Shown here in pieces: positions 7,632-59,771 of a DNA stretch of 64,000 nt. The position numbers and the translations under genes were made by a program. Each line of letters opens with the position of its first letter. Within the stretch, counting starts at the first letter, position 1. Under the pieces are notes generated by a model, which ran no database searches, was not told the origin of the DNA, and was given only the letters and a program-made list of their open reading frames with translations. Where the stretch lies: contig OX344749.2 of assembly GCA_947034885.2 (NCBI GenBank), positions 23,017,501 through 23,081,500 on the forward strand, written 5' to 3'. Source of the DNA: Thuidium tamariscinum (taxonomy: Eukaryota; Streptophyta; Bryopsida; Hypnales; Thuidiaceae).

Positions 7632-7634
7632 ATT

Positions 7635-13123: not shown

Positions 13124-13139
13124 TCGGTACACTCACAAT

Positions 13140-14952: not shown

Positions 14953-14980
14953 GGCTGCGCATACATTAACGTAGTAGTCT

Positions 14981-16936: not shown

Positions 16937-17217
16937 ATTCTATAAAGCTCCGAAAAATATGAAATGACTTGGATTAGATGCCAATGCCAATTTTCTTCCC
17001 ACAAAAATTTATTAAAAATTGTTTCAAGGAACTTAGCTTCCAGTCAATAATGGTGATCAACTCCTTAAATGATTGCTTTATAAACTTCCTACTTTACACC
17101 TCTAAAAAGGTGGGAGCATCTAAAGTCTAGGGACATAATTGGGTGAGTCTAAGGTTCAAGTATAGGAAGAAGTGTGAGAATAGGTGTTTCTACCTTATAC
17201 ATGTTTGAGAAGGTCCA

Positions 17218-17912: not shown

Positions 17913-17943
17913 CCCTTACTAGGAGTCAAATACAATACCATAC

Positions 17944-18044
17944 TTTATTTGTCCGTGTCGTCTTGCCGCTTGCCCCCCAGGCCGTCGTCCTGTTTGTATT
18001 CTTTCTTGCAGTAAAGTTTTTCTTTGCTTGTGTCAAAAAAAAAA
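17944..18044 (+). mobile_element. SINE-like retroposon with A-tail and 14-bp target duplication
   Basis: A 101-bp insert ending in 11 A residues is flanked by exact copies of ATACAATACCATAC at 17930-17943 and 18045-18058. This is the signature of target-primed reverse transcription. Its 3' portion matches the minus-strand insertion at 14981-15066, so it is a family rather than a single processed transcript. Confidence 0.85.
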
Positions 18045-18424
18045 ATACAATACCATACATAGGGTTCCCCGTACTTTTAGGTGTTAAGCTTTCCGTTGAA
18101 GTTCCTGTGAAATCCAATTGAAAAGGCTGATTGACAGAGTTTTGCCGGCTGACTCCCTATGCTCTTAACTTCCTGACTTCCTGCCCTGCACTCCCCCGTA
18201 GATCATCACTTCTCCTCAGTCCCCCTCCGTCGACATGCGTGCCGCTGTTCAGATGACTCTTCCGAGCTCATGATGTCGAGCTTCTACCACTTGTAGCACA
18301 CTTAACTTAACTGTTTTATCTTCTCAAACCATTCAATGTGCGCAATATCTACGAGGACATGGCGCTTGGAGATGCGAGAAGCTTTGTTTCTCGCTTGATT
18401 AGGGGAAGCATGCGTACCTGATTT

Positions 18425-19400: not shown

Positions 19401-19654
19401 AGGCGCGGTCAACCAAGAGAATGTTTGAAATGTTCGTAGCTATGTAGCTCTGTACCGCGTCTGTTTATAATAGTACAAATAAATAGAAGGTCGCAGAATA
19501 GGCAGCAATTGACGTGGTCCTCTAGCAGAAGAAATAAAAAGATTTCAGTTCTCTGTGCAGGAGGGAAATTTGAATGTTGTTTGGTAAGATTCTTCGCCTC
19601 TGACCTCAGCTCGAAAGGAGATAGAATTGCAATGAATCCTTCAGGCGGCTAAAA

Positions 19655-37879: not shown

Positions 37880-38290
37880 AGCTTGACCACTCATTGTCAA
37901 AACGCAGAAATTGTGTTCAAAGTAAAATTTCAGACTTCATTTTGGCATAGTAGAATAACTTTTTACACAAAACTTTGAACTAAAAAATATTGAGAAATCA
38001 AGCTAATTTTCATCACTAAATTTTTTTCTAGATTTCAAGTCTTCAATCAAAAGTTATGAACAAAATTCAAAGATGTTTAGAAATGTCCCTTCTAACCCCT
38101 ACTAGAACTTTGTCCGTAACTTTTGATTGGAGGCTTGAAATTTGAAAAGGATTTTTAGAGATAAAAATTATCTTGATTTTTCACATTAATTTATTTTGAA
38201 TTTTTTAAAAAAAGGCTACTTTACTATGACTAAAGGAGGCCTTAAATTTTACTTTGTGTTCAATTCCTCCCTTTAACTTGAACTCTTACT
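37880..38290. repeat. Fold-back repeat family FB, copy 3
   Basis: Contains CATAGTAGAATAACTTTTT, AACTTTGAACTAAAAA and TCAATCAAAAGTTATG, followed by inverted partners (GTAACTTTTGATTGGAGG; ACTATGACTAAAGGAG). Same architecture as the copies near 12.1 and 13.1 kb. Confidence 0.6.
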
Positions 38291-39874
38291 AATCTTAAAA
38301 CACGTATTCCACATAGGTTGTTTTTACTTCCTACCATCCTACTTGTATCAATAGTTTTTTTCCCTCATTTCTCAACAATATTAGGATAGGAGATGTAGGT
38401 GAGATAAACAATAATAGGCATAATTAGATGTATCCCAAAATATAAATGTCTCATATAGCATGGGAATATAGCTCACTGGCAATGGAGTAACATGGAAAAT
38501 AATCAAAAATTTACAAAGATCATCTATGGTTCCTTTGTAGGGTGATTGCAAGAAACACTTCACGTTTTTGGCTCAAAAACATTGTTTTGGGATATAGTAC
38601 TGGTTGTACTACATAATCCTAATTATACAGCGCGTTTGACGCACACCTACAAATCTCAACCATCAATTTCGGTCACCTACAGATCTGGGCCGGCAGTTTA
38701 GTACCATGTAGTACTATAGACTACTACAAAGTACTTCACAGGCCACATGGAGCAGAAAATAACAGAAAAAGGGTTTGTGGACCTTTTTATTTATAATTAT
38801 TCAAAAATAAATAAATAATTATTTTAAGAAATTTATTTTTTTAAACAAAATTTTGCTCACAATGCAACAAAAAATTCATCTAAATTTTTTTTCCTTCTTT
38901 GTAGTCTTTGTGCACAGAAAGGTCACTTTGACCCCATGTGCACAATAGACATGTTATTATTTTCATAAAAACTCATTGCCAACCCTTGAAATGTTAGTAG
39001 ACCTACAACTTGTCCAATTTGTGGCTTCAAATTCGGATTTTTGAGTCAAAAATAGGACTAAAACCTCCCAAAATGGCCAAGATAGATAGCCAATTGGGGG
39101 CAGTTTGAAAATAGTAAAATAATTTTTTTTAAATTGAAAAATTATACAGCATATAAAACTTTTGTTTGAACCTTCATTCCAAATTTCAAGTTGATAGGGC
39201 AAAAGATGCAAAAATTATGAGCAAAAACCTACTTAAAGGCCATATTCGTTAAATTGGGAAAATGTGCAATCTCTTTTTAATCGTGAGCCTAAATTTAGAA
39301 AGTGGAAGTGTTCTTTAAATTGAGACATTTCAATAAATTAAAACAATGAGATGCCAAATTCATTTTAGAAATGAATGAGATGTGAAGTATAATATGAAGA
39401 ATTCACAATAGACATATTGAGTTCAGAATTAATAAACAATCAAAGAATACATAGCAAGTCTAAATTTGCATTTCAAACAAACAAACATTGACAATGTAAA
39501 TTAAAAAAATAAACCACCACATATCAAACAATATAGTAGAGACACGCGAAACACAAAATTTTAATAGGATGCAACATTGTTGCTTTCAATATTCAAAAAA
39601 GATCAATACAATCAATTTAAGAAATAATTTGCAGACTAAATCTTTGTAAATATTTCTTCTAATAGAATATAAATTTTGTTTTGAAGTAAGGTTTTTTATT
39701 TTTATATTTTTTTATATTTCTTCACTCACTACCAAAATAATATAAAAACTAATAATTCTAGTACTACAAAACTTTTTATGTTTTTAAAATTTTTTTTCCA
39801 CAAAATAATAATAAATCATACCAAAAACTTCTAGTAATAGCTACCTAATATTTGTAACTAAAAAATAAACATCT
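38291..39874. other. AT-rich DNA downstream of gene A, with a putative element terminus
   Basis: At 38540-38556 lies GGGTGATTGCAAGAAAC, also present at 11624-11640 and 58539-58555. Within 200 bp follow several GTACTAC/GTAGTACT motifs, the same arrangement as after the 58.5 kb copy. The rest to the stop of gene A is AT-rich with no gene seen. Confidence 0.4.
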
Positions 39875-42712
39875 TCATGCCGTTGATGCATTGTTGCCTT
39901 CGTTGGATACATATGCATGTACTGATGCTTTGATGATAGCCACCTGATTCTTGGGAATTTTGATCTTCGGATCCGAAGTTCCTGCTCTCACACGTGGCTT
40001 CCATCCAGTCATGATGCAATCAGTGTGTACCCAACTCGAAGATATGACCTTGTCTTCGCTCCAAACATTCCCTTGTTTAGTATCCCATCCAATATAGGTG
40101 TTCTTATCAATGTGTTGAAAAGATGTAGGTGTCCAATACTGTAGCTGAATGAAATTAACATGCGCAGGATCAGGACTAGGATTTGTCAATGCCCGAACAA
40201 GCCAAAATGGACGCAAATCACCATCAGCAGGACGCACAGCCACAAAATAACCTGCATACACATCACGAAATGAAGGAAGTGGACGATCACGTCTTCGTCC
40301 AACAAAAGGAGCATCTTCTGCAAACTCCTCACGCATTGTGCCATTGTCAAGGTAGTGATCTACCTCCTCAATGGAGGTAATTGAATGCGGCCAAAATCCA
40401 TCTCGTAAGGTCTCACGCCTTACAAGTGGTTCAAGTAATGCATTTCGCACACCTTCCCAATATTTTTTCACCGGCTCAATCTTCCTTCGAAACTCTCCCG
40501 ACAAGTCTTGATTAGCCATTGCACTCCACAAATCAATGTACCCATCTAAACCCTTCATAACCTCATCAAAGCAACGCATATGTTGGGGAGCCAATGGTTT
40601 TGGAGTACCCCTTGGAACTTTTGGACGCCCATCTGCAGTGTCTTTCCACAATTGAATCCCTCCACCTTCAAGCGGCAACCAATCACTATCTGTGCAAAGA
40701 ATCTTGTATTGCATCAATGGCCATCCATTGGAGTCTTTGTAAAATTTGAATTGTTGGGCTTGAGAATGGCCTTGTAAAGAATCATCACCTGTATGCAAAT
40801 AACCTTCTACATAGCCTTTGAAATCAGGAACCTCTTCAATGAAATGTGGAATCACTGGTTGTGTCTCACAATCCATGAAGGACTTCATCAACCTTGGAAT
40901 TGTAGGGTAGTCATTTGTCTTTAACTTAGTACTCCATCAACCAAAAAGAGCATCGATGTCTTCATGAGTGTGTCCAACAATGAGAAAATTGATGTAGATT
41001 TCACGAAAAATTGCTCTATAGACAAGGAGAGAGCAAAATGCAAAAACCCAACGGTTTTTGTTGTCACCAGATGCATTATTAAGCTGAAGTGTCAATGTTG
41101 GAGGAAGACTTTGAGGTGGAATGACTTCTTGAGGACAAGGAGCAAGTGAGTCTTCACAAATTTGTGACCCCTCTAAAATTGCAACTGATAAAGGATGAAT
41201 AGGATCATCCTTCTCAAACACCTTTCGAGATGAAACCTTAGGTTCAGACTCCAAATCACGCAACAATTTTGCAATAGATCCAATTGTGTGGTTTGAGTCT
41301 GTTGGAAAGATATCCAACCCATAGTGTGCGTACCAAACATCTCCATGTCCATGCGCAATCATGCCCGTAACAGAAAGTGGCATCTTCATGAACGAATCAG
41401 TCCCCTTGTTCTTATGAGAGAAATGAGGAGAAGCAGTCTTTGAGTGATCCATTTTGTCATGAATTATGGTGAGCATCTTGTCGGGGGACTTCTCTGACGT
41501 CAAACGATTGGCATAATACAACTCCCGATGTGCTTGCTGCCCTGCCAGGTGAACTTTCAATTTTTTAGTCCACACTTCTTGAGCATGCGAACGTGGAGTA
41601 CATGCATTCTTCAACTGTTTCAATCTATCACATTGCCCACAACGAGCAAAACTGTCACCACGAGCTTTGGAAGCATACTCTGGAAACGAAGCACGACAGA
41701 TGTTGCTCAATCCACTTGCTGAAACATGTTTCAACTGGAAGGAGGAATTGATACTATTAATCTCAGGCAATGTTTCACTCCATCGAAATGCTGAAGGGAG
41801 GACCATCAAAGGAACTTTCTCTCCTGATGCAAGAGTCCTTGATTTGTGAGGCATTTGGTCTGCACTCCTCTCTAGAACTAATCGAAGTGTGGCAGTTGCC
41901 TGCAATGTTTGAGTGCGTGGCTTCTTCAAGCCCACATTACCATGGTGCTCAGGTTGTTTACCATTTCTTGCTTGCTCTCTGTATCTGTAGTAGGTAGATT
42001 TATGAACTCCATGAATGACACACCAAGCTGTAGGACAGACCTCACGAGAAGCTAAAGTGATCATCTCCCTTCCATTAGAGTCATGGTGGATTTGCTTGTG
42101 TACACCAAGCAAACAAGATTGACGATTGTAAACACCACCTTGAACATACAATTGGTTTCGTATGGCTTGAATCTCCCCACGAGGAAAAGGTTGCAAGCAA
42201 TTTTGCCTACAACAGACCACCGTGGACACCTCAGAAATGGCTCGAGTGATTAAAAGGGCTTCTTTCTTTGGCGTAGTTGCTGATTCCTTTCTCTCACGAG
42301 AACTCTCGTAAGTTCGCACGCTTGTTCGAACACGCCGACCTGATGCAGTTATTGCAGTCTTGAATATGTGAGTTTGGTCATGATCATAAAGGCTAGCACC
42401 ATGAAGAAAGACACGTGAAATAGGCCACGATCGCATGGACCACATCCAAGTAGACGGAACATCAGCCTCATTTAGAGACTGTGCGATTTGAACTGCAACA
42501 CGATCATCTCCGAGAGGATTCCCGTCCATGTCGATCACAAGGGACGCATCGACGCTGTGGCAAATCGCTCTCGCAACCTCAACTCCAGCTTCATTCGTCA
42601 AAGTAACAACTTTAGTGATCCAGGAAGATCGAGGAATTCCCTCACAAGGAGAAACACCCGCCGGCAACGTTGGCAAAGATCTTGTGAACTCATTCATCTC
42701 GAGAGTAGCCAT
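39875..42712 (-). pseudogene. Gene A: DUF7869-type transposase-like protein with one premature TGA
   Basis: One 946-codon frame from the ATG at 42712 to 39875, interrupted only by TGA at 40937-40939. Recognisable parts: a Cys cluster VVCCRQNCLQPF, a helix-turn-helix-like HGVHKSTYYRYREQARNG, a Cys pair FARCGQCDRLK, and the RNase H-like core with TIIHDKMDHSKT, MIAHGHGD, LQLNNASGDNKNRWVFAF and FLIVGHTHEDIDALFG. The stop falls directly after DALFG, where the family continues without interruption, and the frame resumes at once (WSTKLK) for about 350 more residues of conserved C-terminal region. The family occurs in many copies in eukaryotic genomes and is presumed transposon-derived; the catalytic role is inference. 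The upstream 700 bp carries nine copies of the 21-bp palindrome. If TGA is not read through, the product would lack its C-terminal third. Confidence 0.75.
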
Positions 42713-42752
42713 TTCTGCGCAACAGAGAGAATCATTTGTCAGAGAATGAAAC

Positions 42753-43429
42753 GTATCCTCGATTCGAGGATAAATTCTTCTCAACAATTTATCGAATAAA
42801 CGAACTCATACAATAGACCAAATCTGCAACACTTCCCACAAAATAAAAAACAATATTTACTATCAAAATTATTTATATCCAAAATGAACAAAAAATATAC
42901 AATCGTTTAGGCTATTGGTGACAAAGATACCCAACGTCACAATTATCTTCGACTCGAAGATAATGCAGTAACAATACTTATTTAATACTTTTAAATGTTT
43001 TGTTCTGAAAAGATCATCTTCCTCATTTATATACACGATTCAAATAAGAATGAATTATCTTCGACTCGAAGATAAGTGAAGTCGTCAGGACGTATCTACT
43101 TGTATATGTTTACTCCATTATTACTTTTAAATGATCGATCTTGTTTCAGAGTAATATTAAGTCTCCATACATTCCAGCTATCTTCGACTCGAGGATAAAT
43201 GGAGAATTATCCTCTATCCGAGGATAAGTTGAGAAGTATCTTACAAATGAGTATATCTTCCAATTTTTCCACGCGTCACATTACTGTTCAATTTATCTTC
43301 GAGTCGAGGATAAGTACTAATTTATCTTCGAGGCGAGGATACTTCTCATATTATCTTCCCTGAAAGGTTATGTATTTCCTGATCATCTGGAAGATGGTAC
43401 TTCACATTTTATCTCCGAGTCGAAGATAA
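42753..43429. repeat. Cluster of nine 21-bp palindromes upstream of gene A
   Basis: Copies at 42753, 42943, 43055, 43178, 43207, 43293, 43322, 43351 (degenerate) and 43409, each 21 bp. Arms are TTATCYTCGA and TCGARGATAA around one variable base, so orientation is undefined. Spacing is irregular. The nearest copy is 41 bp upstream of the gene A start codon, so the cluster covers its leader and proximal promoter. Possible protein-binding sites, by inference. Confidence 0.85.
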
Positions 43430-46400
43430 ATAACAAGAGTTCAAGTCGTATGAGCACTGTTCCGGATTTTACGGCGTAATATTTGCGGGGCACTGACTTC
43501 CACTCTCACGACAGCCAAGAAAATAATGAACTCTCTCATGATTCCATGATTTCGCGAGACACACACAACACAAACAAGAAAATAACGAACATGATGTGGT
43601 ATCAATACTCAGAGAAGATTAACACAAACTAACAGCATGAATCGTAAGTTCAGAGACGGGATGTCTTGTGACAATGACAAATCATACGGACTCATGAAGA
43701 TGGAAGACACCTACAACAAAAGATGAAGTGCAGCAGAGTAAAAGAAGTGCTACTTCAACATACAACAATCGGGATTGCGTAAGTGGAAATACTTCGTCAA
43801 ATGCAAGAAAAAACGGAATGCAGAACCGCAAGGCGCCGGCGGAGCAGCGTCTTCAACATACACGAAAATGAAGCAGAAATGAAGCAATGGCATTCCTGGG
43901 GAGAGAGACGATGGAAAGAAGGCGGCGGGATGAAGTGGGCGGGAAAGGTGACGGCATTTCGAACCGTGAAGATTCTTCGGACGTAGGGGAGAAGTACCTC
44001 CAAGGTTTAAGGGGCTCTGAAATTCTGAACCACCTTAAAATGGTATTCAACTTGAATGCTGAATAACTTTTCACCAAATCCCGTGGAATTTTAGAATTCC
44101 CTTGCACGATCAATATCCACTTGGGGGAATTTTATGCCGCGACCTTTTTTTAAGCCGGCATAACATCCGAGCCAGAGGTACGAAGTTCAATGGTTGTCCG
44201 GATTTGGAAATCAGAACATTCCAAATTATTTGCGCGTCCTCCTTTTGCGTATTTTGGCTACGTGTCTTCTTATCCTCCTCTCCCTATAAAAATAACTTTT
44301 CATTGTCTTAAAAAAAAATTATTTTTTTCTGGCGGCCCACCAACATGTATTACTTGTTTCTGTGGAATTTGAGAAACTCATCCTATCATCGTGATTTTTG
44401 TCTTATAGTATGCTTAATTTTAATTCTTAAAACCCTAAAGTTCAGTTATTTTCCTTATTTATTTTCAAATTTCACATCTATGAGTTCAATCTTTGTGTAT
44501 TTGGGATCAACCTTTTTTTAAATGTAATGGCAAAGTATGCTCATATTTCAAACAACACATTGAATGTCTGTAAACTAATAATTTTTTCTTTGAGAATTCG
44601 AATTGTTTTGAGCACTACAACTATTGTTGTATCAAACGCATAGGTCTTAAGTCTTAACTTATACGTTGCATTCCTTGTTTTCTCAGTAGTACAAATAGTT
44701 CTATTAATTGAAAATTTGTTGTCAAATTTTTTAATGTATTCTTAATGTTACCACTTAACTTTCAAAAGACACGGACATGCAATCCAATGAAATGTATTTA
44801 AAGAAAAATATGAAAGACACTCTAAAACTTGAATTATAAATCTTTTAATCCTAAACACATTGAGTGCTTCAGATTACATCAAAAGCTAACCTTGTTTAGG
44901 GACTAAAATGAAAATAGATTCTAATGTTCTGATTTTGTATGCCTTTTTTAAAATTACATGCAACTCATAAATGAAAAAAGGAAAGTTAAATTTTGAAAAT
45001 AAATTTTTCTATCCTTAAAGTCTTCCTAGAACTCTTCTCATTTGAAGAAGTAACCATTGTGCACTTCAAATTCACCATGAGTGATCCTCTATTGTGAAAT
45101 TTATACATACATTCTCAACTCTTTCATTTTTCAATTAGTACAAAAAAACATCATTTCAACATACTCTTGATTGTACATTTATAATCTTCTAAAGTGAACT
45201 ATTGCTTGTATATCCATCAACATAGATGAAACTTTCAAATTCACAATGATTGTAGAAGATTAGAGTATAAAGATTACTTTGGAGCCCAATAATACTAAGT
45301 ATTGTAATCAAGTTTTTAATGTACTAATGAGGATCTTTTTAGGAAGAGTAAAAGTATAAATCTCACTTTCCAAATGAATGATTGTGACTTCAATTTAGAA
45401 TTTTGATTGCACATTTTCATATTTTGGTACTAAAAGTCTTCGAGATGAGCCTTTACTATCCTAAAATTTGGATTCAAAATCACATAAGGTATTCACTTAA
45501 TAAACTTAGGAATAGATATAAAAAACAATTAATAAATTGATCGTATACATATTATCCCCTTTACTTTATACTTCTTGATGACAGATTCTTTGAAAATTTC
45601 ACCCCGTGGAAATTTCTTAGAGTAACCTTTACACACTATATATGAGAGTATTTTAGATCCCTAATTTGATTTCCTATAAATTTAAATAGAAAAAGAATTT
45701 TACAAAATGACAATATTTTTCCACTCTAGAAGTTTGTAACTTGAATAATTTTTATTGTTGGTGGTGATTATCATTAGTTACAAATTTTTTTAAATAATAA
45801 AAAAGTACATTGTAGTAAGAGTACAAAACAACTTCCATACCCCTATTTTATATAAGAAGAAACTGTTCAAGGAATGAATACAAAATTATTAAAAATATTT
45901 TCCGTTGAAAGTTTTTTTCGGTTCAATATTGATGCCATATTCATTTACATTTATTCACTAGAAAAATTTGAGCTGAAAAACATAGCTACTTAGGTCATTT
46001 TTCAACCTACTTTACTAATCATTTCATATGTTATTCTAATACAAATTTTTGGCAATACAAGCCTAGTACAGTCATTGTTAAGCACATCTAATAATTATAA
46101 ATTGAAGTCACAGTTTGTAAAAGAATATGTAAGGGGCCTGAAATTCATTGTAACACTTGTTGTCTGATAATATACACTAAGTTATCTTGTGAAGTGGGAA
46201 TTTGACATGTGAATATCAAATTAAAAGACTTTTCAACAGTTACTTATGAACTTCTAGTACACACATGAGAAATTATTATTAATTAACCCATCCACAATTG
46301 ATATTGTAGTATTACTTTGCAAGGCATTTAGTCTTCTATGCACTACGCTATCTCAATCCTTTTATAAGAATTAAAACTTCTGAAAATGATATACCTCTCA

Positions 46401-49400
46401 AATTTTTAATTCAGAATTTGATTTAAAGCTTTTTGCACAAAGAATTGAGGAAGCACCCTAGAAAACTTTGGCATGCAAGGGTTTAATGAATGGTACATTT
46501 TATTCTAATCGGCAAGTTCATTCTACAAATTCTATTTATAGATTATTTCTTGTTGTACCTATATGACGTTTTTATTAATATAATGTACTATATTACTAGC
46601 ATACAGGATTGATAGATATCTACATAGCATATTAAATCATTCTTGTTCATAAAAACATTGGAAATAATTTTAAAAAATTCACCAACATGACATGACCATT
46701 TTTAAGGTTTTGCTATTCATTTGTTTTTACCTTTCTTCTTGTTGTTGACAGAACTATTACTTTTAGTTTTTTAAGAACGGAAGAATTTTTATTTAAGATA
46801 AATTCTTCTACAAATATAATAAATGTAAAAATTGTTTATTATAAATAACAAAATATTTTGCTTTCCGCTATCTTTTCCAAATTACACTATCAATAATTAT
46901 GGTACAATTCCTATATAACAAGTGATTTGTAGTAAATTTTATGAGAAAATTATAACTAAGTATTACAGAGTGCTTAAAGAAAAGAAATTGGGATGGAAAA
47001 GAACTGGAAAAAAAATGGGAAGGGATAAAGAGGTAGATAGGAAGGAAAAAAAATGGGAAGGGATAAAGAAGAAGAAAGGAAAAATGGAAAAGCAGAGCAT
47101 TTGAAGTTTTGATTCATCTAAAAGAAAGCATGCTTTCTCATGACATCATATAGCAAATACTAATAAACAATAATTGCATAAATTGAATTTTTCACATGGC
47201 GTGGTAGAAGAGACTACCATATACATGCAATTCATAAGTAATATGAAGATTAGGAAGTAACATATGAAGCCATAACTTAAAAGCAAAACAGATTTACACA
47301 TTGTACTATCAAACTCTGTGATTGAGGGGCCTAACCCTAAACCAAAAATGTGAATTGTAACTAAAATGTAGGAAATTCACCTTCTACCAGTTCAGGACAC
47401 TCACAGTTATGCCGGTTGTAAATTGAATCTGTAAATATGTAATGCCAAAGATCCACATTTTTATAGGTTTATAAATCTACCCTTTTTTCTTATTATCATT
47501 TGGATGAAAGCCAATTTAATTTTTGGGGATACTTTGGGAAGTTGTGGTTCCATTAAAAGTTTGGATTCAGTCCAACTACTGCATGTATTTCTTTCAAATG
47601 GCAAATGAGGTACTATATCAAACAAGAAATTGTGCATATAGCAATAGTAGACATCTTGTAAAACTTGAACTTCTTAAAAGCAATTTCAAGTTTTCATGAA
47701 GTACACTTAAATAGCGCAATACAAAAATGAATGGATTTGGCATTAGTATTTCATTATTGAAAACAAACTTGGATATTTAACCCATAAAGGTATTTTGCTA
47801 ATTATGTTTCCACCAAAATCACTCCAAAACTGTGATTTCTAACACAAGTGCAGTTTTTTTTCAACATATTAAATTGTAGGATCTCGTAGTTATGTGGTTT
47901 GAAAAGATGTGGAAAAAATTCAAATATATTCATCATGTAGATTGCAAGATTTTAACATTTAAACTAACAATAATCACGTATTTGTCCTTCTAAAAATCAT
48001 AGCACCTGTATCTTATAAGGTTATATTTGTATTGACAAATACACGATTTTTTCTTTTAAAAGAAGGTTATTTTTACAATTTTTTTTTGCCTTAGTTGTCT
48101 GCAATTCAAACAAAGTAACATAAGAAGCCATAATTTTTTAACCATGTAGTCAAAAGTTACGAAAGTTATTGGGCCCTAACGGTACTCCTGGGATTTATGT
48201 TGTGTGAAAATTTCAAAGAAATAAAACAAAAACTCCTTCCATGGTGAGCTGTCCAAAATTGCTATGTTGCCAAAAAAAACATAGTTCAGGGCTTCGGGGG
48301 GTTACGTTCCTAGATGATGAGGAATCCTTTGTCGAAATTGTAGAAAACAACGTCCCATATTCAATATTATAGGTAAGAACTAAATCGCTTTACGCTACTT
48401 TAAAGTTTTATAAAAAAGAAGTTTCTTATTCAAGAAAAAGGATGCTACCTCATACATTCAAATATATGAACCCCTAAACATACCATGGGAATCTTCGGTT
48501 AAAAAAAAATCTAGAAGTACACGTTGGAAGTCAAAGCACTGTAGAAGATCTTCCGTTTCCACCCCTAATTCCTTACAATTATGCTTGCAATTTTGTCCTA
48601 CATAAAAAAATTCCCTAAAACCAGGGAATGGCTTTGGCATCGTTTAAGGTTAAGGACGCTTCCATTGCACCCTAGAATGCTATCATTGATTAAAATGAAA
48701 GAAGACCCCCCTTTTAGAAAAAAATTGAGCCCCATTTGTTAGATAAATACAAGACAATCATTAACATAAGTATAATATAACACAAATGGTTTTGTAAATG
48801 AATTAACAACACCTAGGACAATTAGTTTTAATAAAATACAATAACACACAATTCGTTTTAAGACTTAGAATCACGCGTTTGGATTTGGGGATCTGTCAGA
48901 AACGCAATTGTGGTGCGCTTTCTGGGGGCCGGATTTTATTGGCTGTGTCAGTCCGACCCACAAAAAGAAAGAGGAGCAGCCAGGGCCCAGGGGCCCAAGT
49001 TTGCTACCATACGAAAAAACTGAAAAATTGGAAAACTGGGGTGGAATAAATTTTTTTTTAAATAACAAAAAATTTAAGAAAAAATTAGGGTGGAATAAGT
49101 TATTTGGTGAGAGATGCGTAGCATTCGTTAGCATTCTAATTTAACCCTTAAACGTCGAAGAGGACGTTTTGCGTCTGCAGAATGAGAGAGAATCTTCCCT
49201 TGTAGAGTGGAAGTGCAACTATTGGTCCTCGGTTTTAGGGGTGGAAAGGGGAAATCTTCTACAGGGTTTTTGACTTCCAATGAATATATTTGGCTTTTCC
49301 AAAGTAGATGATGTCACACGGAATCAAAATGCATGATTTCCACGGTCACCAGTCCGTCGTTCAAGGGTTAATCACACAACTTGAAGAAAAGTAAAAGCAG

Positions 49401-50422
49401 AAGTCGCCCACCGAGCTCTTCGGGTGGGAAGCCTCCAAGTCAGGAAGCACGGTCATAGGCTCCCAACGTCGCGGTCAAAGGGTGCAACCCACGTGGCTGC
49501 ACCACGACCCTTTCCTCTTGTCCAAGGTTAGGGTTTGCAGTTCTTCATGTTTTTGTTCTCTTCTCCTCTCGCGCCGTGTTTTGTGGGTGCATCGCGCCGA
49601 GTTTGCATTTCCTTTGCGCTCCGAGCGTGCGTTTTCTTTGCGAAGTTCAATGGCCTGTGTGTGTGTTTGTGATTGTTTGTTTGTGTTTTACGGGCGCGTG
49701 TGTGTGGTGCTGCCTTCCGCGGTAGTTGGGTCTGGCACGACTCCGGCCGTGACGGTGTTTTTGGTCGAGGCCGCCCCTGCGTGTGTACATCGCGCATTGT
49801 AGATAGCTGTGCATTTGTTTCGTTTTTTGTCCGCTCCAATGTGTAGCCGTAGTGCGTCGGAGTATTTGGGAGGCGCAAGAGTTCTGTTGGGTGTTTGGGA
49901 GGCGCATGTGCTGCGAGGTGCGACCTAGGGCGACCGCAATTTGGATTTGCGCACTTCTTTGAAGCTGGCGCGGAGTTTGCTTGGCGAGGAGCTAGCGGTT
50001 TGAATTTGAAGTGCTCGTTTGCAGGTGAGGATGTTGGGTTTAGGGTTTGCTCTTGACAGTCAGTCTTTCAATTCAACTGCATTCAAGCTGCTCCTTGTTT
50101 TTGAATTGTATCTCCTTCTTCAGAGAAGAGCATGTGCAGACAGTTTCTTGATTTTGAAGTTTCAACTTGCATTCACGGATGTTAACTCCCAATCTCTATA
50201 CATCGCAGACTCTGATTATCTCCTTGTGGTACAAGTATTAGCGTCACAGTTACCTCATTCCATAGGTAACAACACAAAACGTTTTGGGAACTCTAAAGTA
50301 TTGTGGAAACAACAATGAATCCGAAAACAGGGCAGCAACATCCAGGACTGGCATTAGGGTTTCCGTGAAATAAACATTCAAAATTTCTAGAAATACAGGG
50401 AGTAGTCCAATAAAAGCAGGAG
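43430..50422. other. 7-kb spacer between divergent genes A and B
   Basis: 43430-44000 is of ordinary GC and may be the gene A promoter. 44000-48850 is AT-rich without recognisable genes. A GAAGGGATAAAGA-type short tandem repeat lies at 46980-47090. 49440-50040 is CpG-rich and contains TTAGGGTTT twice, as plant promoters and leaders often do, so it may hold the transcription start of gene B. None of the 21-bp palindromes is found in this spacer. Confidence 0.4.
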
Positions 50423-50867
50423 ATATCTTCGACTCGAGGATAATTATCTTCGACTCAAGGATAGTTATCCTTGACTTGAGGATAACTATCCTCGAGTCGA
50501 AGATAATTATCCTCGACTCGAGGATAGTTGTCCTCCTTTCGACAACATAAAAATTTCACTACCCATCCAGCCCCTGAAGAAAAACAATGGGACTGAACCC
50601 AAGCGCTGAAAACAATAAGAGACAATTATCCTCGAAGCGAAGATAATACTCGGAGAAGACGAACATCACATCCTCTATCAATCCTAGGACTAAACAACTT
50701 CCTAATCAATACGAAACCTTCTATATCCTGAGAGGGTAGATTATCCTCGATGCGAAGATAATGCTTCAAACTGCTCGACCCATATAATGCTCGACTAAAA
50801 AGCAATGATCATAGTCTACAAGCATGGGCCAGTAAAGAAAGTAAAGTTATCTTCGAACCGAAGATAA
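50423..50867. repeat. 21-bp palindromes upstream of gene B, five in exact tandem
   Basis: Five copies abut without a gap: 50423-50443, 50444-50464, 50465-50485, 50486-50506, 50507-50527. A degenerate sixth follows at 50528-50548. Three more stand alone at 50626, 50741 and 50847, the last 54 bp before the gene B ATG. The repeat unit equals the palindrome length, so the array was probably made by unit duplication. Its members differ at several positions, so the array is not brand new. Confidence 0.9.
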
Positions 50868-52356
50868 TATGAACACTATACTCACGGTCTGAAAAATTGC
50901 AATTGTGCAGACATATCTAAATGGCTGCCGAAGGTGATTACGACTACTCAGCAACAAGGCCATTCATAGAGCCATTCATGTGGCAAGGAGATGCGCCATT
51001 CTTTGCGGACATGGAGGACCAGTATGGCGACTTGTGGAAGCTGAAGTCAGTCGTCGAGTCTTGGACTATGGGCATCAACAGATTCAAGAATTACGTATTC
51101 CTTCGTCTAAAAATAAAGGGGGCGGCGAACTTCCAACTTTTCAATGTGAGTGAGAAGGTTGCATTCGTGGAGGATCATCAAAAAGAATATGTCGTCCTCA
51201 ATCTGGAAGCAGTCAATGACAAGGGCGAGGAACTCCCGCACACTCACTCGATTGTCTTTCACCAGGATGCCAACACAGCCAATTTCGATTTGGATGAACT
51301 CATCAAGTCTCTACAGGAGGCAGCAAACGAAAATCTTACGCGAGAGATGACCAGGAAGTTTCATCCATGGCTCACAAAGGATGCTGGATCCATGGCAAAA
51401 CGACTGAACTTACTCCTACGCGATCTGGAGAAATACGCTTTGACTAACGTCGAGAAGTCAGGCGCTACAGGTCGAGGGGTATCACAGAACAGGCAGGTGT
51501 CCCAGCTAGCGTCCCAGATTGCATCAGTTGGGAGAGGGACATCCGCTAGCCGAGGTAGCGGACCTAGTTCTGCTCGAGCTCAGCCTAGGAAGCGTAAACC
51601 GAGCACTACAGAGGTGGGGGAGAGTAGCGGTAAGCGCCAGCGAGCGCCGGCACCAAGTCGAGCTACAGCGGCTGGTAGTTCAGGGTCAGCTTTAACAACC
51701 GTGGCGGCAGCAGCGGCTGTTGACGACCAACCTATTAAGAAGTACGAGCTTGCAGCAGCATACCAGGAGAACTTCTGGAATAACTGCAAAGACTGCTTTA
51801 TTTTTGATCCACAGACTTTCACTGTATCCATTGACAAATGCTTCTTAGCAAGGCCTAAATACATTATCAGGTAGTTGGAGCAAAAGATTGTCACTGAAAC
51901 ACGGGAATTCTTGGTCGGTTTGTCAAACAAGAGGCAGCGTCAGACAATCTGCCTCACACCCATTGATGAGAAAAAAAATCTTTTAAAGGAGCAACCGAAA
52001 AGCTGGGATGAAATTAAAGATGGGAGCTTCTTCATCATCAATGGGCAGCACAGCATCACTACATCGAAGCAGCTTCAAAAAGGTGGTTGCTGTGAAAAAA
52101 GAAAACAAGAACTCCAGACGTGGGACGCCACGATAGTGTGGAGCCTGAGTGCGGAGAAACTTACTCAAATTTCGGGCTGGTACAATAGGACTAACCATCT
52201 GAAGCATAGTCAGCCAACCTGGGGCAATCAAATTTCTTTATGTTGGTCGATCTGGGTTAGCTCCAAGAGACCTACTGCTGTGGAATCAGACCGAGAGAGG
52301 AGAAATAATGGTTTCAAGTTCGACAAGAATGCATACCAGGTAATGCTGTTTTGTAA

Positions 52357-52461
52357 TTATCCTCGAGTCGAAGATAATGTATGTATCGAGAGTCTTAATT
52401 TCTTCATGACAGTTTCTAGTTGAGCTCATTACTGTGTCGATTATCCTTGGGTCGAGGATAT
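52357..52461. repeat. Two 21-bp palindromes in gene B intron 1
   Basis: Copies at 52357-52377 and 52441-52461. The first begins 18 bp after the donor GTAATG at 52340. Both are inside the 193-bp intron, so they make up over a fifth of it. Confidence 0.85.
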
Positions 52462-53889
52462 CTGTAATACAAAGTTTCATCAGATTAGTATTGGGACCAA
52501 TACTAATGCCAATTTGGATTGCTACGCTACAGAAATTTGTAGAGGCTCTGATATTTCGATACCAGAGCGTGAATCCGGAGAAAGACGGGAACAGAGTCAA
52601 CAAAGAATCCGACATAAAAAACGAAATCAGAATAGTAACGTTGGATGATGAGACGTACCTGTTATGGAAGACGTTTCTGAAGCGCCACACGGAAGGGACT
52701 CTTATCGATCCCTGCACAGGGAAGTCATATCGGAAGGCCAAGAATTTCAACCTCAAGACTTTTGAGCTGAAGAGAGAATTCTTCAAGCATTTAGGGCACT
52801 TCACAGATCACGATCTCTATGAGTATGTGCTCCATTTGCTAGGGAAAACTCCAGGTCGCTCTCTACCATACCCAAAAGTCTCAGTGGGGAAGTCGAAGTT
52901 CTTGGTTGAAGACAATATGTCCCATGCTGACTGGGTAGAGCGTCGGAAGTGAAAGAAGGTAGTTCTCGAGGAGTTCATGGCTATTGATAAGAGCTTGAGG
53001 CTGAAGGACCGCGAAGGAGATGTAAAGGACGGTGTATGGAGAGAGTGGAAAGAGAAACACCTCTTCAGTTCAGCTTCTTGGGATTTTTTGCTGAACGCAT
53101 TGCCGGCGGCCTTCTTCGTGAAGCGTCTAACCAACGAGGGGAAGTTGAAGACGGCTGCTGACTATAAGGACAAGGCATTTCCTACACTCTTCCCTCTATT
53201 GAAGAGATTTCTTCTCCTCAAGAGCAACGTGAAGCCGTCTGAAGGGGAAGTGCAAATTCGTGGGCACGATTGCTTTCCTCAAGGCTTCAGTAGCAGTCAC
53301 GTTTGGACTTACCAAAAGCGAGGGCTTCCTTTTGGAGTCATTGACTTCAGACAACTTCCCAGACCGATTCCGGAATCAGAACAACCTGATCCGCTGTTGC
53401 CGCTTTTGAAGTTCCTATCTGACCATATGAGGCCCACTTTGGTGAGTCCAGATCTGTGGTTGTGGATTCCGACCAATGCTTTCGAGTATGAGGAGGCTTC
53501 AGCTTACGCGGAGAAGAAAATGAAGTAGTATGTGGTGAAGACCGCTCTCTACATCGAGTGCAAGGCTGAGAAGTTGAACAGCTCCATAGCGCGGAAGGAC
53601 CCTCCTCCAGTGAAGCTTCTCTTTCTAATTCGAAAGGACAAAGACGGTGCTCCGATAGAGCACAGTTCTTTGAAGAAGGTGTACACCACTTCCGACGGCA
53701 CCTTCTACAAGGACCTTCGGTTTAATACCGAGTCCAAATTCAGATCCCATCCTAGCGAGCTTAGGATGGAGTTCTATATCGACGTTCTTCAAAGTTTTGC
53801 TACGAGGGGGGAGAACGTCCTCAGCATCTACGGGGGATCGAAGTTTTTACTTGCCACAAAGGTAAACATCTTCCTCGTCTTTCGTTTTA

Positions 53890-54028
53890 TTATCTTCGGG
53901 TCGAGGATAAACCAGTGAAATTCACAAAAGCCATTTTGAGTCAAAATGTCAATGATAAGCAGACTAGCTTTATCATCGGGTCGAAGATAAATTCTGGGTT
54001 TGATCATTTATCTTCGTCTCGAGGATAA
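53890..54028. repeat. Three 21-bp palindromes in gene B intron 2
   Basis: Copies at 53890-53910, 53970-53990 and 54008-54028 within the intron 53862-54171. The cores vary (GGG, TCT) while the outer TTATC/GATAA and the CG steps are kept. Confidence 0.85.
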
Positions 54029-55127
54029 TCTCCTTGTGTGTTTAGAGTTGATGAAATCGATATGGTTATTTGCTGGTGGAAGGTACTCTCTCTTTATGAG
54101 TTCTGAGTCGTGGTAAGCCTGGGTTCATACAGAAGTTGGTCCTTTATTAATTCGATTATCGTGTGTTGCAGCTTTGCGGCATGTTCTGCTACGCTGTAGC
54201 AAATAGACACCACAGGGAGAAGCTCCTGTAGCTTGTGAGGCGTGGTATCGCAGCGGACGTGAATGACTTTCTTCACGACAATTCACCTTACAAGCCCAAC
54301 TACGTTCGACCACGTTTGTTGCGGTCCCCTGATCCTGACTTTGAGTCCACGCCAGACTCATCAGAGAAAGATGGTTCTCCCGAAGGGACAGAACCCGCGG
54401 AGGTGGTCAGGGAGGAAGTGGTCCTGCGGAGGAGAAAGGAGGCAGTAGTGGACGATACTAGGGAGGACAAGGAAGAGGACAGTGACAGATCTCTTGAGAA
54501 GGAGGACTCCGTGCCGAAGGGAGATGGAGCTGAACTTGGCATTGACGAATTCGGGACAAACGTCAGCATTGTCCAGAATTCAGATCTGCAGCTCACCGCC
54601 AATGATTTTGAGGTGAGACCCCGACAATGCTTGTCGTCATCGGTGGTTGAAGAGGAAATACAGATGGCGTCTGATAAGGTGGCCCCGGATTACGAGGGCA
54701 AGGAAATTATAGATTTAAGCGACGGGGACTCTTACGATGACCTCAGGCATTTGAATTACGATGCACCCATCCCGGACACTGCGACATCATTTGCACCGCA
54801 AGATCAGGGGACGTCGACGGAGGTTACTACCGCAGACGCGCAAAAGAATTCCGGGATTTCTCAAAGCGGTTCGGCTCCAAGGGCATCGGAGGTGAAACAA
54901 GAGAAGTCCGACTGGTGGCAAAAACGTAACGAAGAGATCGCCAGGGTTCGGAGGGAGGAGGCATTGGAGAAGGAGAATATGCAGGCTGAGTTGCAGAGGA
55001 TGAAGGAGGAGAACCTTTGTCTGAAGGCGGAGAATGCCAAGAGTGCAGCACTCTCTCATGATGCAAATGCGGATGGGCCGCATAAGAGTGGTTCGTCAGT
55101 GCAGTTGGACTCTGCTAGAGTTGGGGA

Positions 55128-55490
55128 TTATCCCCGAGGCGAGGATAAATCATTAACTTCCTCGCCCTCCCCCAGAAGGAAAAAAAGCTCTCCTCCTGTT
55201 GTGGCAAATTATCCACGAGGCGAGGATAAGTCAGTGACCCCCTCGCCCTCCCCCAGAAGGCAAAATCGTTCTCCTCCTGTTGTTGCCAATTATCCTCGAG
55301 GCGAGGATAAAGGTCTCCCTCATTCCGTTGCATCTTCTAGGCAATTGCGTTCCCCTCCTCCTGACGACTCACAAGATTTGGCCCTTCCTCTCCACGACAA
55401 GCAACCCAGTCCCAAACAAAGGATTGGTTGCACTGTGAGTCTCGTTGCTGGACTTGTAGCTTGTGTGAATTATCCTCGGGTCGAGGATAA
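55128..55490 (+). repeat. Coding 21-bp palindromes and 81-bp tandem repeats in gene B
   Basis: Palindromes at 55128, 55209, 55290 and 55470 are all read in one frame as DYPRGEDK, NYPRGEDK, NYPRGEDK and NYPRVEDN. The first three are spaced exactly 81 bp and head a 27-residue repeat (NYPRGEDK, then a Ser/Pro/Arg stretch such as PSPSPRR, then SPPVVA). The palindrome is conserved to the base, including synonymous positions, more than the rest of the repeat. Confidence 0.9.
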
Positions 55491-56076
55491 TTCCAGTACC
55501 CCTCCTGATGAGGATTATCAGGAGCAAGAGTGCGTTGCCCCGATCGCTGATGCTGAGCGGTTTGAGCAGGTGCATGAAGAAGTTCCGCCTCCGACAACGT
55601 CTCCCATTCGAAATTACGAGGCGGAGTCTCAGAACCCACCCGATGACGAAGACGAAGAACAAGTCGATTACGGTGATGGCAATGAGGATGCCATGGAGTT
55701 GGCGTTTGGACAGGTATCGCCGCAGACATCTGACCCCTACTGTCTTGATTGTGTCTCTGGGAACTCTGAGTGATGAGTACTGTTCTGTCTTTGATGCTTG
55801 CTGCGTTTTGTAGTGAGAGACTCTTATATCGTCTTGTCCTGTTGACAGGAGGGAGTGGAGAGTCAGTGATTGACTTGCGTCGGCATACCTCCCGTTTTAA
55901 ATCGTTCGTTGTAGTATAGGTCACATAGTGGGCGTGGTTTTGGATTGTATAGAGACGGTAGAATTTTAGCAAGTGTGCTACCACATGTAAATTAAATTCT
56001 CTGAAAATAAATATTCGTGTACAGAGTTCAATTCAAGTCGTTGGTAACCATCTGTTTTTGCATATGTTTTGTCCAG

Positions 56077-57084
56077 CGCATGGGGCTGAAATATTTGCAT
56101 CGTCCTTTGGCACTCAAACATGATTTTAATGAAGGGATTCTGCAATCGCTTAGTGGGGGGCAATGGGGTTCGCCGTTGTTTGGATCACCTGGGTCTGCGT
56201 TTCATCAGGTAACTCCACTTCTCTCTTGTTTCTGATTTTACCAGGTAGTCACGGGCAGCGGTGGAGAGAGAGTTCCTCGGAGTGTTGCCCCAGTAGCACC
56301 CGTTAGGCCGAAGAAGTGGTTGAACCTCGTCTTCGACCTCAACGGAGTGCTTTGCCATTGCGAGAATAGGACCTTGTATAAGAGTGAACCTGTCCATTAT
56401 CCAAAGGACTGTGTTTTCTCGGATCGGGTTCCCACGCTAGTTGCGTCGAAAGCTGTCTTCGTTCGTCCCAATTTGAGGGACTTCTTGAGGGAAGTCGGCC
56501 AATTAGCAAACCGTATTGTATTCTGGAGCTCCATGGTCTACAAGAACGCCGAACCCATTGTCCGGTTTCTCTGCAAGAACAACTTAGAGGCCTTCGTTGT
56601 ATACGGTCAAGAGCATTGCAAGACCGTTGAGCGTTCACCAGGGAATTTTCTCTTTGAGGGACTCAACCCTACGAAGCATTTGTTTTTGAAAATCCTCGAT
56701 GAACGGTTGTTCACGCGGCCTGCGGATCCCATGTATTTTAACGCGGACAACACTATTCTTATTGATGATTCCCCGGCAAAGAGTATCTTGAATTACAATG
56801 GGAACGCAATATTTTTGGAGTCGTGGAATCAATTCCATCGTGGGGACAAAGTGTTGATGTCAGCCCTCCTCCCCTTGCTCAAGCGAATTAGTGAACACTG
56901 TCCCCCCGGGCACTTGCGTGATTTTGTTGACGCAAACCGCATAGGTCAACCCCCGCTGACGCGTTCCTCGTATGGCGTGGGTCATATGTTGGAAGGATTG
57001 AGGGAGTCGGCTAGGAATTTCGGGTGCAACTACGTGCTCCCGGGGATGGGCGTAGTGATCAAACCAGAGCGATGCAGGACATAG
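56077..57084 (+). CDS. FCP1/NIF-type HAD phosphatase-like region with altered DxDx motif (possible gene B C-terminus)
   Basis: Exons 56077-56208 (ATG at 56080) and 56245-57084 join in phase 0; the ATG-initiated product is 322 residues. Motif I reads VFDLNGVL, where FCP1-type phosphatases have DLDETL or a close variant. The first Asp (nucleophile) is kept but the second, the general acid/base, is Asn. Motif II (IVFWSSM) and the acidic motif (ILIDDSPAKS) are present. By family knowledge, loss of the second Asp usually abolishes or greatly reduces phosphatase activity, so a binding role is possible. The acceptor at 56076 and a donor at 55714 would fuse this in frame to gene B, where all other introns are also phase 0. 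A separate gene is the alternative. No internal stop. Confidence 0.65.
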
Positions 57085-57241
57085 TTCTTCCGTGCGATTT
57101 CGCATTTGTAGAATTAGCTTTAGATTTAGAGGAGTTGGAATTCATTTGTAAATATTATCCATTTGAAATATAATGATTTTCATTTTCAACTTCATCTTGG
57201 TTGCACTGTGGTATTCTTGAGTGTCCCCTTCATTTGGTTGA

Positions 57242-57262
57242 GTATCTTTGAATCGAGGATAA
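57242..57262. repeat. Last copy of the 21-bp palindrome
   Basis: Slightly diverged copy between the FCP1-like stop and the next exon-like frame, 35 bp before its acceptor. No further copy was seen to the right. Confidence 0.7.
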
Positions 57263-57296
57263 TGGGAGGGACTCCTTCACATTTTTCCTTTTCCAG

Positions 57297-58148
57297 ATTG
57301 GAGGAGGTTTTAAGGCCATTTGTCCCCAACTACTAACTAGGAGCTTACTTTCCGGATCGGACGCGGCGCTGTCCGACACGTCCGAATTCGATGAGCGGAG
57401 CGGCGTGCCTTCTGCTGATTCTAGACCTATTATGTTGTGTTCGGCCACGGATGCGGCATCTGCTGCCATCGACTTTTCTAAGGGAAACGTCAATGATGAT
57501 GCAGTTGACAGTCCACCGAGGAAGGGTCCACCCAGAACTCCTGTCTGCTCACCATCTTCTCTGAAGTGGCCAATCTCCAAGCCGAGTCGACTACGATCCC
57601 AGTCGCCGACTCCCCGTGTTGAAATGGCTGTACATAGGAAACTATATGCGGACACGGAAGCAGTTGCGGAAGATCTTCGAGACGAAGACGATGTTTCGGT
57701 TGCAAATGCCCCCGAAGCCCCTGAAATCATCAAATGGGATGTTGGGGTAGATTTGTCGACGAGAGGATGTAAGAGGAAGGTACCTTGTGCTTCCCGCAGT
57801 GCCGGTGATGCTGAGCAGCTGCAAGGCATTGCTGGATTTGTACCTTCAACACTCGTAAGGTGTGAATCTTCGCCTTTCGTGGGGCCTCTATCGCGCGTAG
57901 CTGTGCTCGCGGGGTACCGGCGATCGAATGGTGATCGGCCAACTGCTAGTGCAGATCTTAATGTAAATACCCTCCGTAGATCCTTGCCTAAATGGCCTCC
58001 TCAAAATTCCAAGTCACTTTCAAGCACAGGCGTTCCTCGAAGTGATCGTAGGGAGGCTATGGAACTTATGAAGATGGGGATGTGGACCATTCCTAGTGTG
58101 GAACCTAAATTAGGCCTTCTCGCCGCGAGGATATTCTTAGAGGGCTAG
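57297..58148 (+). CDS. Unassigned exon-like frame, 283 codons plus stop
   Basis: A good acceptor (TTTTCCTTTTCCAG) at 57296 opens a clean frame starting IGGGFKAICPQLL and ending at TAG 58146-58148. The product is Ser/Pro-rich and probably disordered, with no recognised domain (KWDVGVDLSTRGCKRKVPC; RREAMELMKMGMW). There is no obvious ATG near the start, so it should be a 3' exon, perhaps of gene B by alternative splicing past the FCP1-like stop. I found no phase-0 donor that proves the link. Confidence 0.45.
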   Translation: MGGGFKAICPQLLTRSLLSGSDAALSDTSEFDERSGVPSADSRPIMLCSATDAASAAIDFSKGNVNDDAVDSPPRKGPPRTPVCSPSSLKWPISKPSRLRSQSPTPRVEMAVHRKLYADTEAVAEDLRDEDDVSVANAPEAPEIIKWDVGVDLSTRGCKRKVPCASRSAGDAEQLQGIAGFVPSTLVRCESSPFVGPLSRVAVLAGYRRSNGDRPTASADLNVNTLRRSLPKWPPQNSKSLSSTGVPRSDRREAMELMKMGMWTIPSVEPKLGLLAARIFLEG

Positions 58149-59771
58149 CTAAGCTGAAAGCTCAAGAGGAAAGTGATAGCCATGCTTCCCCGAAGAAGAA
58201 TGGGTAGTTGAGACATTTGTGTCCATATCCCTAGGGCCTTGGTTGACATTCATCCCTATTAATAGACTATACATTCATATAATGCAACCACTTATTGGTT
58301 AGGAAAAATTTCAATGCACCCATCCATTAGCATGTGCCGTTTATATTTAGACATAAAATACATCACCCTAACCAATCACAAATAGGTTTTGGGATTTCAT
58401 TTCTTAGGAAGTGAAGTATATAGACATGTGAGGAAAATAGTTTCATGTATACATGAATTCTGAAGCATCTTCAGAATATTTTTCAATGTAAAAAAAAATT
58501 TTGTAATTGTTTCGTATTTTTCAATCCCTTGTATGGAAGGGTGATTGCAAGAAACGGTGTTCGTTTTGCGTAGCGTTTTACAGAAATCTGGATTTTCGGA
58601 GCGCAGTACTATGAGTACTACGGGTACTATAGGCGGCAAATGTAGTCCGTCGATTAAATAGTAGATCTTCTGCGGGGTTGACGCGTGTTGCAGAGGGCCG
58701 TGGCTTGAGCATTAAATGTAGCCGCCCGATGTGGTTCACTGACAACTCGCCATCAACTTCTTAATTTACACGTCGACGCTTACAGGATGAAAGTAGTAAA
58801 GTTTCTCATCCACTTGCATTCATTCGTGGATTTTAGGGATGGATGGAGGTAGGTTTTCGGTGGTTGTGGATGAAGTTTTGAAAAAAAATGGCGGTTTTTG
58901 CTTGCACTCTTCTCCGACTTCGTTTTGCTGGTGGCTGCGATCGTGAGAGGTTGGCGTCGACTGAGGTCAATTTCCTTGGAGGGATTGCGAGTGTGTTTAG
59001 TGGAGTGCCAATTTTGAAGTTAGCAGTTTCATTTTCAATTCACCACGGAAAACAAACGCACAATTGCGTGAGGGAAAGCTCCAGGGTTGCAGCGGAATTG
59101 GAAGTCTCTCCATTTTGCGGTGTTGGGCTCCACTGAGGGTTGTTGCAGCTAGGACAAGATGTTCATCAAGTGTGTGGAAGGGAGTTGGTGAAGGATTGCA
59201 TTTGTTGCACTTCTAATTCTCGTGGTGAACGAAAACTGCCCGGATTGCTGCTCAGAAGTACGAAGGCTGGTGCTCTCGAGTGCGGAGGCTGCTTAGCGAT
59301 GCCAACAGCAGAACTGAGGTGGCCGATTGCAAACATCGGCAGTTGTGACGACGAAATCAGCGCCTGAGTTCTAGGGTTCCTCTTTCTCTCGATTGAGCGG
59401 CGTTGGCGGTCTGGTAAGCAATCTAGTCCTCTGTAATTCTGGCTCCCCTTGAGAATCCCATTGTTGAACAACTACGGTGTTCCCAATTTCTCCATAAGCG
59501 CTTGTTGTTTTTGGCATTTGTTGTTGGCACATTGTCATTACTGCCGATGAGGGTGACATTGTCATTTTCCATTTTGTTGCCAACGTGGGCCACTTAGAAT
59601 TGCCATAATGTGGATGTCAATGTTTGGCTTGGCTCCTGTGACATTTCGGTAGGATTTAGGATGTCCTGGGCAATTCAGATTTAGGGTTTCGGCGCCTAGT
59701 TCGCCATGTGCAATGTAGGTCATGTTCATCTCCCCTTTTTTTTTTAAACTACCTCTGTCTTGTGGATGCAG
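58149..59771. other. Spacer before gene C, with a putative element terminus and leader
   Basis: GGGTGATTGCAAGAAAC lies at 58539-58555, followed within 80 bp by GTACTATGAGTACTAC and GGGTACTATAG. From 58880 to 59770 the DNA is of higher GC with several GT-AG options and ends in a strong polypyrimidine acceptor (59761-59771). This looks like promoter plus a 5' untranslated intron of gene C. Confidence 0.45.

Follow-up and report, generated by a model that had tools for sequence, protein, structure and literature searches.

A dispersed 21-bp palindrome with conserved placement in a large terminal-inverted-repeat transposon of the moss Thuidium tamariscinum

The 64,000-nucleotide stretch of the Thuidium tamariscinum genome analysed here (the window; C1:23017501-23081500 in an assembly of 363 Mb and 19 contigs) contains part of a large DNA transposon with two genes, A and B, accompanied by many copies of a 21-bp palindrome which, we propose, may be bound by the protein encoded by gene B. 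An earlier note, made from the letters of this stretch, had described the two genes as an 'element pair'; they proved instead to be two genes of a single terminal-inverted-repeat (TIR) transposon, which occupies positions 39236-58538 (+ strand), continues from 80016 after a nested insertion and has its right end at 80207, outside the window. The left TIR (39236-39262, + strand) is 27 bp long and 96% identical to the right end, and both flanks read CTTA, a 4-bp target duplication. A second copy (copy 2; C1:47302538-47320813, 18,276 bp) has inverted repeats of 27 bp, 96% alike, at its ends, and the window is collinear with it from 39236 on, most blocks being 82-97% identical and one 77%. Without nested insertions, the element measures about 18 kb.

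Gene A (39875-42712, - strand) encodes a DUF7869 (PF25273) protein, a candidate DDD transposase, and is decayed in the window by one in-frame stop (TGA, 40937-40939). Apart from one sub-threshold ArgoL1 match, DUF7869 was the only Pfam family found at E ≤ 1, and the named relatives of the gene belong to the mosses Ceratodon purpureus and Physcomitrium patens. All 34 gene A sequences compared share D419, D545 and D587 (P0001 numbering), along with other invariant Asp residues. The structure model is weak (predicted local distance difference test score, pLDDT, 65) and gave no fold match at E ≤ 0.001, and sequence comparison of gene A with solved structures returned only chance-level matches (3 at E ≤ 1). 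That model, an AF2 (AlphaFold2) model of a gene A relative, shows paired helices in the N-terminal half, which may be the helix-turn-helix region mentioned in the earlier note.

Gene B, whose exon limits were inferred from the sequence, has four exons on the + strand: exon 1 (50921-52339; 473 codons with one in-frame stop, and of the same extent in L037, a copy with about 43% identity), exon 2 (52533-53861, two in-frame stops), exon 3 (54172-55713, one in-frame stop) and exon 4 (56245-57084), which carries a NIF-type phosphatase domain at about 56323-56895 (PF03031, E = 1.1e-17). The open frame that comes next (57252-58148, + strand), a fifth exon or a third gene, is partly conserved in L037 (67% over 188 alignment columns). 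Within exon 1, positions 51812-52210 (+ strand) match a ParB-fold domain, as carried over via alignment A1/A4 from residues 299-431 of the relative P0127, and a ParB nucleotide-binding (CTPase)-like fold is predicted there; compared by sequence with solved structures, the exon gave only chance-level matches (4 at E ≤ 1). The GERR motif of ParB is replaced in gene B by GQHS, invariant in alignment A4, and nucleotide use may therefore differ.

With four in-frame stops, the gene B copy in the window is decayed. Among decayed gene B copies, in-frame TAG is commoner than TGA or TAA (counts not normalised to codon use), a bias that might stem from cytosine methylation at CAG. Both genes show selection when diverged copies are compared: in pairs picked by hand, the ratio of nonsynonymous to synonymous substitution rates came to 0.09 and 0.11 for two pairs of gene A and to 0.12-0.17 for four pairs of gene B. 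The ratio was 0.49-0.72 in the other three gene A pairs, near-identical in sequence, and 0.58 in one near-identical gene B pair; six more gene B pairs were saturated at synonymous sites. Gene B copies about 43% identical keep the exon limits, exons 1 and 2 aligning whole, exon 4 over residues 2-278 of 279 and exon 3 over 47 residues only.

Scanning the window with the 21-mer TTATCYTCGANTCGARGATAA at ≤3 mismatches yielded 27 matches, versus a mean of 0.03 in 100 dinucleotide-preserving shuffles. Twenty-six of them fill exactly the stretch 42753-57262 delimited in the earlier note, whose distances upstream of the start codons were also reproduced (41-717 bp for gene A, ATG at 42712; 54-498 bp for gene B, ATG at 50921). 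Eight palindromes, none of the 26 being assigned a strand, precede gene A (42753-43429; starts 42753, 42943, 43055, 43178, 43207, 43293, 43322 and 43409) and eight precede gene B, five as an exact 21-bp array (50423-50527; starts 50423, 50444, 50465, 50486 and 50507) and three others nearer the ATG (50626-50867; starts 50626, 50741 and 50847). The reported recurrence in gene B introns and exons was borne out by nine copies: two in intron 1 (52357-52461; starts 52357 and 52441), three in intron 2 (53890-54028; starts 53890, 53970 and 54008) and four in exon 3 (55128-55490; starts 55128, 55209, 55290 and 55470), the first three of these last spaced exactly 81 bp and all four translating in frame as YPRxED. 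A single copy lies downstream of exon 4 (57242-57262). At the same threshold there was none in the gene A coding region, in gene B exons 1, 2 and 4 or intron 3, nor, as had been noted, in the 43.4-50.4 kb spacer and gene C, a gene of a nested insertion described below. Two of the 28 copies originally counted, termed degenerate and probably those at 43351 and 50528, have 7 mismatches each and are not separable from chance by score, because 42-58.2 kb gives 17 matches at 7 mismatches; they nevertheless keep the local 29-bp or 21-bp spacing. The first 42 kb, thought to be free of copies, holds one with 3 mismatches at 36155, which we counted as real because it is located inside a 255-bp miniature inverted-repeat transposable element (MITE; 35963-36217, - strand, palindrome at 36155-36175) whose ends resemble the TIR of the transposon.

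The terminal repeat AAGGCCATATTCGTTAAATTG had 259 forward and 239 reverse matches genome-wide (≤2 mismatches), versus 0 for the reversed control, and was found at the predicted left end in 14 out of 14 copies fetched. Matching 4-bp flanks were present in five of six full-length elements and seven of ten MITEs, one match (AAAA) being of low complexity; the flanks were mismatched in C7:4871834-4908893, L071, L072 and the window MITE, and the count was made without L074-L076 (inverted partner with 4-7 mismatches at 490-713 bp). The genome contains at least 74 gene A matches and at least 115 distinct gene B loci, and gene B lies within 20 kb of 57 of the 74 listed gene A copies, 56 of them in divergent orientation, where chance would give 0.94. 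An A-only lineage had been suspected from nine gene A copies (69-72% identity) that had no partner in the first list of gene B loci. A search with a more distant gene B relative placed a gene B no farther than 20 kb from three of these copies, and two more have a divergent gene B at 22.5 and 38 kb; with these partners, such a lineage is not supported. Contig C11 (17.5 Mb, 4.8% of the assembly) holds 46 of the 115 listed gene B loci and 21 of the 74 listed gene A copies, and is perhaps a sex chromosome or repeat-rich.

The palindrome itself had 2057 sites genome-wide at ≤2 mismatches, against 28 for the reversed control. Proximity to the element was analysed for the 50 distinct sites among the matches listed, all of them exact and on contigs C1-C2. 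For 41 of them, a scored copy of gene A or B lay no more than 15 kb away (three of these placed via gene B copies from the later search with the more distant relative, 38 before it), and five further ones were within 15 kb of a listed terminal repeat, which puts 46 of the 50 in or near elements. The four sites unaccounted for are C1:25072302, C2:481045, C2:2036795 and C2:7944474, the last one being 17.9 kb from a listed terminal repeat. The palindromes are thus specific to this element, as had been claimed, and enriched near gene A and B relatives; random scatter was not seen. The palindrome core and gene A had no match in the viral collections searched.

The places occupied by the sites are conserved between copies. 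We examined gene B loci whose exon 1 matched in full; these were 26 of the 30 fetched, the other four being left out for partial matches. A site was found 72-86 bp before the gene B ATG in all 26, with more upstream, often at exact 21-bp steps; exon 1 was free of sites in all 26, and intron 1 held at least one site in every locus and two in 24. At gene A, all ten loci had 8-12 upstream sites, and none in the coding part searched or in the 1.5 kb beyond it. The upstream and intron 1 sites were retained in 10 of 10 loci with an approximately 43%-identical gene B, and L037 has sites in intron 2 and exon 3 too. The translated exon 3 sites (those of the window, two in L037 and two in L004) all read in frame as YPRxED or YRRLDD. 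Outside this genome, 11 of 17 gene B relatives from a protein database (some perhaps close kin, and read from protein sequences) encode the palindrome just past the exon 1 donor, in frames running on into intron 1 (exactly in eight, at one mismatch in three). It was absent from P0124, P0127, P0131, P0135, P0136 and P0137, among which P0127 has few residues past the donor and P0137 stops short of it. When 120 gene A relatives (73,553 residues) were tested in this way, 32 matches at ≤1 mismatch appeared, only one of them exact; by our reading, the exact one falls within the P0003 leader, some 30 bases ahead of the likely start codon and close to the position of the site at gene A in the window.

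Comparison of 162 distinct sites over their 10 symmetric position pairs revealed that the two arms vary largely independently, Watson-Crick pairs being about as frequent as independence predicts at eight of the ten. The half-site is a 9-bp sequence, TTATCNTCG, present in inverted orientation around a 3-bp spacer of free bases. Since the arms vary largely independently, two half-sites of a dimeric protein fit better than an RNA hairpin. The TTATC core is almost invariant across the three subfamilies, which differ at position 6. The 95% and 60% identity groups (68 and 88 distinct sites, respectively) have C or T there, with 3% A in the 95% group, but in the group with about 43% identity (47 distinct sites, 11 loci) the shares are 34% A, 30% C, 28% G and 9% T. 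The difference gives a chi-square of 204 on counts rebuilt from rounded fractions, a value that overstates certainty because the sites are related by descent.

We consider it most likely, with confidence evenly balanced, that the gene B protein recognises the palindromes as binding sites, marking the transposon against silencing, on the grounds of a layout like that of VANDAL elements, the loading of ParB at palindromes and the anti-silencing activity of VirB. The palindrome would then serve this moss transposon as a cis-acting site for its own gene B product, one monomer of a dimer sitting on each 9-bp half-site in the manner of ParB-family proteins on parS-like palindromes. With sites before genes A and B, in gene B introns and in exon 3, the protein might coat or mark the A-B part and so protect its own promoters from closure by host silencing, much as unrelated VANC proteins do on VANDAL elements and the ParB relative VirB does in bacteria. 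A more far-reaching version, which we regard as a tentative possibility, is a ParB-parS-like system of a eukaryotic transposon, in which gene B would encode a ParB-fold clamp fused to a phosphatase-like domain that loads at about 26 dispersed palindromes, spreads, shields the element from silencing and lets site-bearing MITEs be mobilised, the specificities of protein and site co-evolving between subfamilies. Of the interpretation in the earlier note, element specificity stands and the 'element pair' falls; its sequence-specific factor gains indirect support from the independent half-sites, their conserved places and the predicted ParB-like fold in gene B.

Several observations weigh against binding by gene B and a role confined to regulation. 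The ParB-fold match is limited to the nucleotide-binding domain (299-431), at 15% identity and with a model pLDDT of 68, and the fold class includes sulfiredoxin and SerK, which do not bind DNA. None of 16 alignment members was recovered by ParB profiles of Pfam (E ≤ 1) or NCBIfam (E ≤ 5). The helices following the domain (435-449, 458-462 and 470-473) fall outside the fold match, and no DNA-reading helix-turn-helix was modelled, in a model made without exon 2. Positions 6/16 and 10/12 of the palindrome depart from independence, with 90 Watson-Crick pairs for 77 expected and 65 for 84.6 expected, respectively. Seventeen of the 74 scored gene A copies have no scored gene B within 20 kb, and six of eight gene-less MITEs found by their TIR alone carry the site, which self-regulation does not need.

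These MITEs bear most directly on another, rather unlikely explanation, namely that the sites are bound by the gene A transposase and act in transposition or auto-regulation. In the MITEs concerned (242-255 bp) the site lies about 42 bp inside one end, the genome has at least 40 near-full-length MITE copies, and across nine aligned copies the palindrome columns are somewhat better conserved (0.841) than the rest (0.774) and less than the TIR (0.911). Site-bearing MITEs favour a transposition role, and the paired helices modelled in the gene A relative would suit binding by its product; the gene A model, in contrast, lacks a fold match. The full-length copy 2 also argues against it, with no site (≤4 mismatches) in its first 3.4 kb or last 1.4 kb (sites from 6030 to 19787, element 2568-20843), which makes it unlikely that the site is a universal transposition end. 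In CACTA/EnSpm elements, the element protein TNPA binds many short subterminal repeats; the moss element similarly has many short repeats within it, yet in full-length copies these are placed at internal promoters, introns and an exon. Regulation and transposition may both be served by the same site.

Binding by a host transcription factor which the transposon parasitises appears distinctly unlikely. TTATC is the complement of GATAA, a GATA/I-box-like core, and its near invariance in the three subfamilies would suit such a factor, whereas position 6 differs between subfamilies within one genome and host promoters should also carry sites, instead of 46 of the 50 listed exact sites being in or near elements. 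Neutral amplification, with the 21-mer as a functionless tandem repeat spread inside the transposon, could account for the 21-bp and 81-bp arrays, which differ in copy number between copies, and is made very improbable by the retention of site positions among copies whose proteins are about 43% identical, and likewise in 11 of the 17 gene B relatives, together with the site-free exon 1. RNA hairpins acting in splicing, stability or as a small RNA source are scarcely credible and were rejected because most symmetric positions do not covary: many sites are intronic or fall within one exon, and a stem of 9 pairs capped by a 3-base loop is conceivable, but 47 of the 162 distinct sites are unpaired at positions 6/16 (45 C-A, 2 A-A) and upstream sites form exact 21-bp arrays, that is, two helical turns.

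The copy in the window is interrupted by a nested 21.5-kb insertion (58539-80015) with its own 4-bp duplication, GGAA. Gene C belongs to this insertion, a different transposon which starts at 58539, has imperfect ends (GGGTGATTGCAAGAAACGGTG / GGGTCATTGCATGAAACGGTG) and contains no detectable relative of gene A or B. It carries 40 copies of AGTACT, often as TGAGTACTAC, perhaps a repeated site of its own. A 30-mer at 38539-38568, about 700 bp left of the main element, is 83% identical to the left end of the insertion and is probably derived from, or related to, that second family. Large inverted repeats, near-perfect or imperfect, occur elsewhere in the window at 8765-8993, 12091-12669 and 37900-38274 and are probably fold-back or MITE-like elements.

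In the literature searched (subscription journals and preprints lying outside the search) on moss DNA transposons with palindromes, on ParB-like proteins in transposable elements and on Sola, ParB and anti-silencing, we found no account of such a system; nor was any mention of DUF7869 found. A defined element, with TIR, 4-bp duplication, gene order and MITE, can now be attached to DUF7869 genes in moss genome annotation, and the diverging subfamilies, with over 100 loci of gene B within a single genome, allow changes in protein and site to be matched. Should gene B act as proposed, this would be a novel means by which a transposon labels its own sequence. By description, the element resembles the Sola superfamily, which has TIRs, 4-bp target duplications, DDD transposases and some members above 15 kb, and occurs in moss (PMC10741241); the likeness covers ends, duplications, size and host, gene A matching only DUF7869 in Pfam. 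That description, as available, says nothing of palindrome arrays or of a ParB-fold gene (PMC10741241). In a 2025 survey of the ParB fold, sulfiredoxin is given as the most common eukaryotic representative, and words that start with plant, moss or transpos do not occur in the main text as available (PMC12704722). Sulfiredoxin shares with the gene B product a eukaryotic origin and the fold class predicted for that product, and differs in being a small redox enzyme.

The closest parallels are with bacterial clamps and with VANDAL elements. ParB is described as spreading from palindromic parS loading sites (PMC8367383), and VirB as spreading from virS and countering H-NS silencing (PMC10770331). 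With the ParB/Noc/KorB clamps and VirB, the moss system would share a predicted ParB-CTPase-like domain and palindromic loading-type sites, and palindromes with apparently independent half-sites co-occur with gene B loci. It differs in being a eukaryotic transposon with no ParB profile match and about 26 sites in one element, its nucleotide binding, clamp closure and DNA-reading domain being putative. If correct, ParB-style recognition of dispersed palindromes, which serves partition, occlusion and anti-silencing in bacteria, would have been taken up by a plant transposon. In the Arabidopsis Mutator-like VANDAL elements, as far as described, VANC21 binds short, tandem and fast-evolving motifs upstream of VANA and in VANB/VANC introns and removes silencing (PMC5735166). 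The moss element likewise has dense, short, element-specific motifs in its non-coding parts, upstream of the transposase gene and in accessory-gene introns, in tandem and with specificity shifting between families. The VANC21 motif is, however, the 9-base non-palindromic YAGTATTAY (PMC5735166), in contrast to the 21-bp palindrome of the moss, and the four exonic sites in the window are unlike its pattern. VANDAL elements are further distinguished by a Mutator-type transposase and duplications of about 7-12 bp, whereas the moss transposon has a DUF7869 transposase candidate, 4-bp duplications and a gene B with predicted ParB-fold and NIF phosphatase domains. If the gene B protein does act on the palindromes, sequence-specific anti-silencing would have evolved convergently in this moss transposon, the same task being performed in Arabidopsis by the unrelated VANC proteins.
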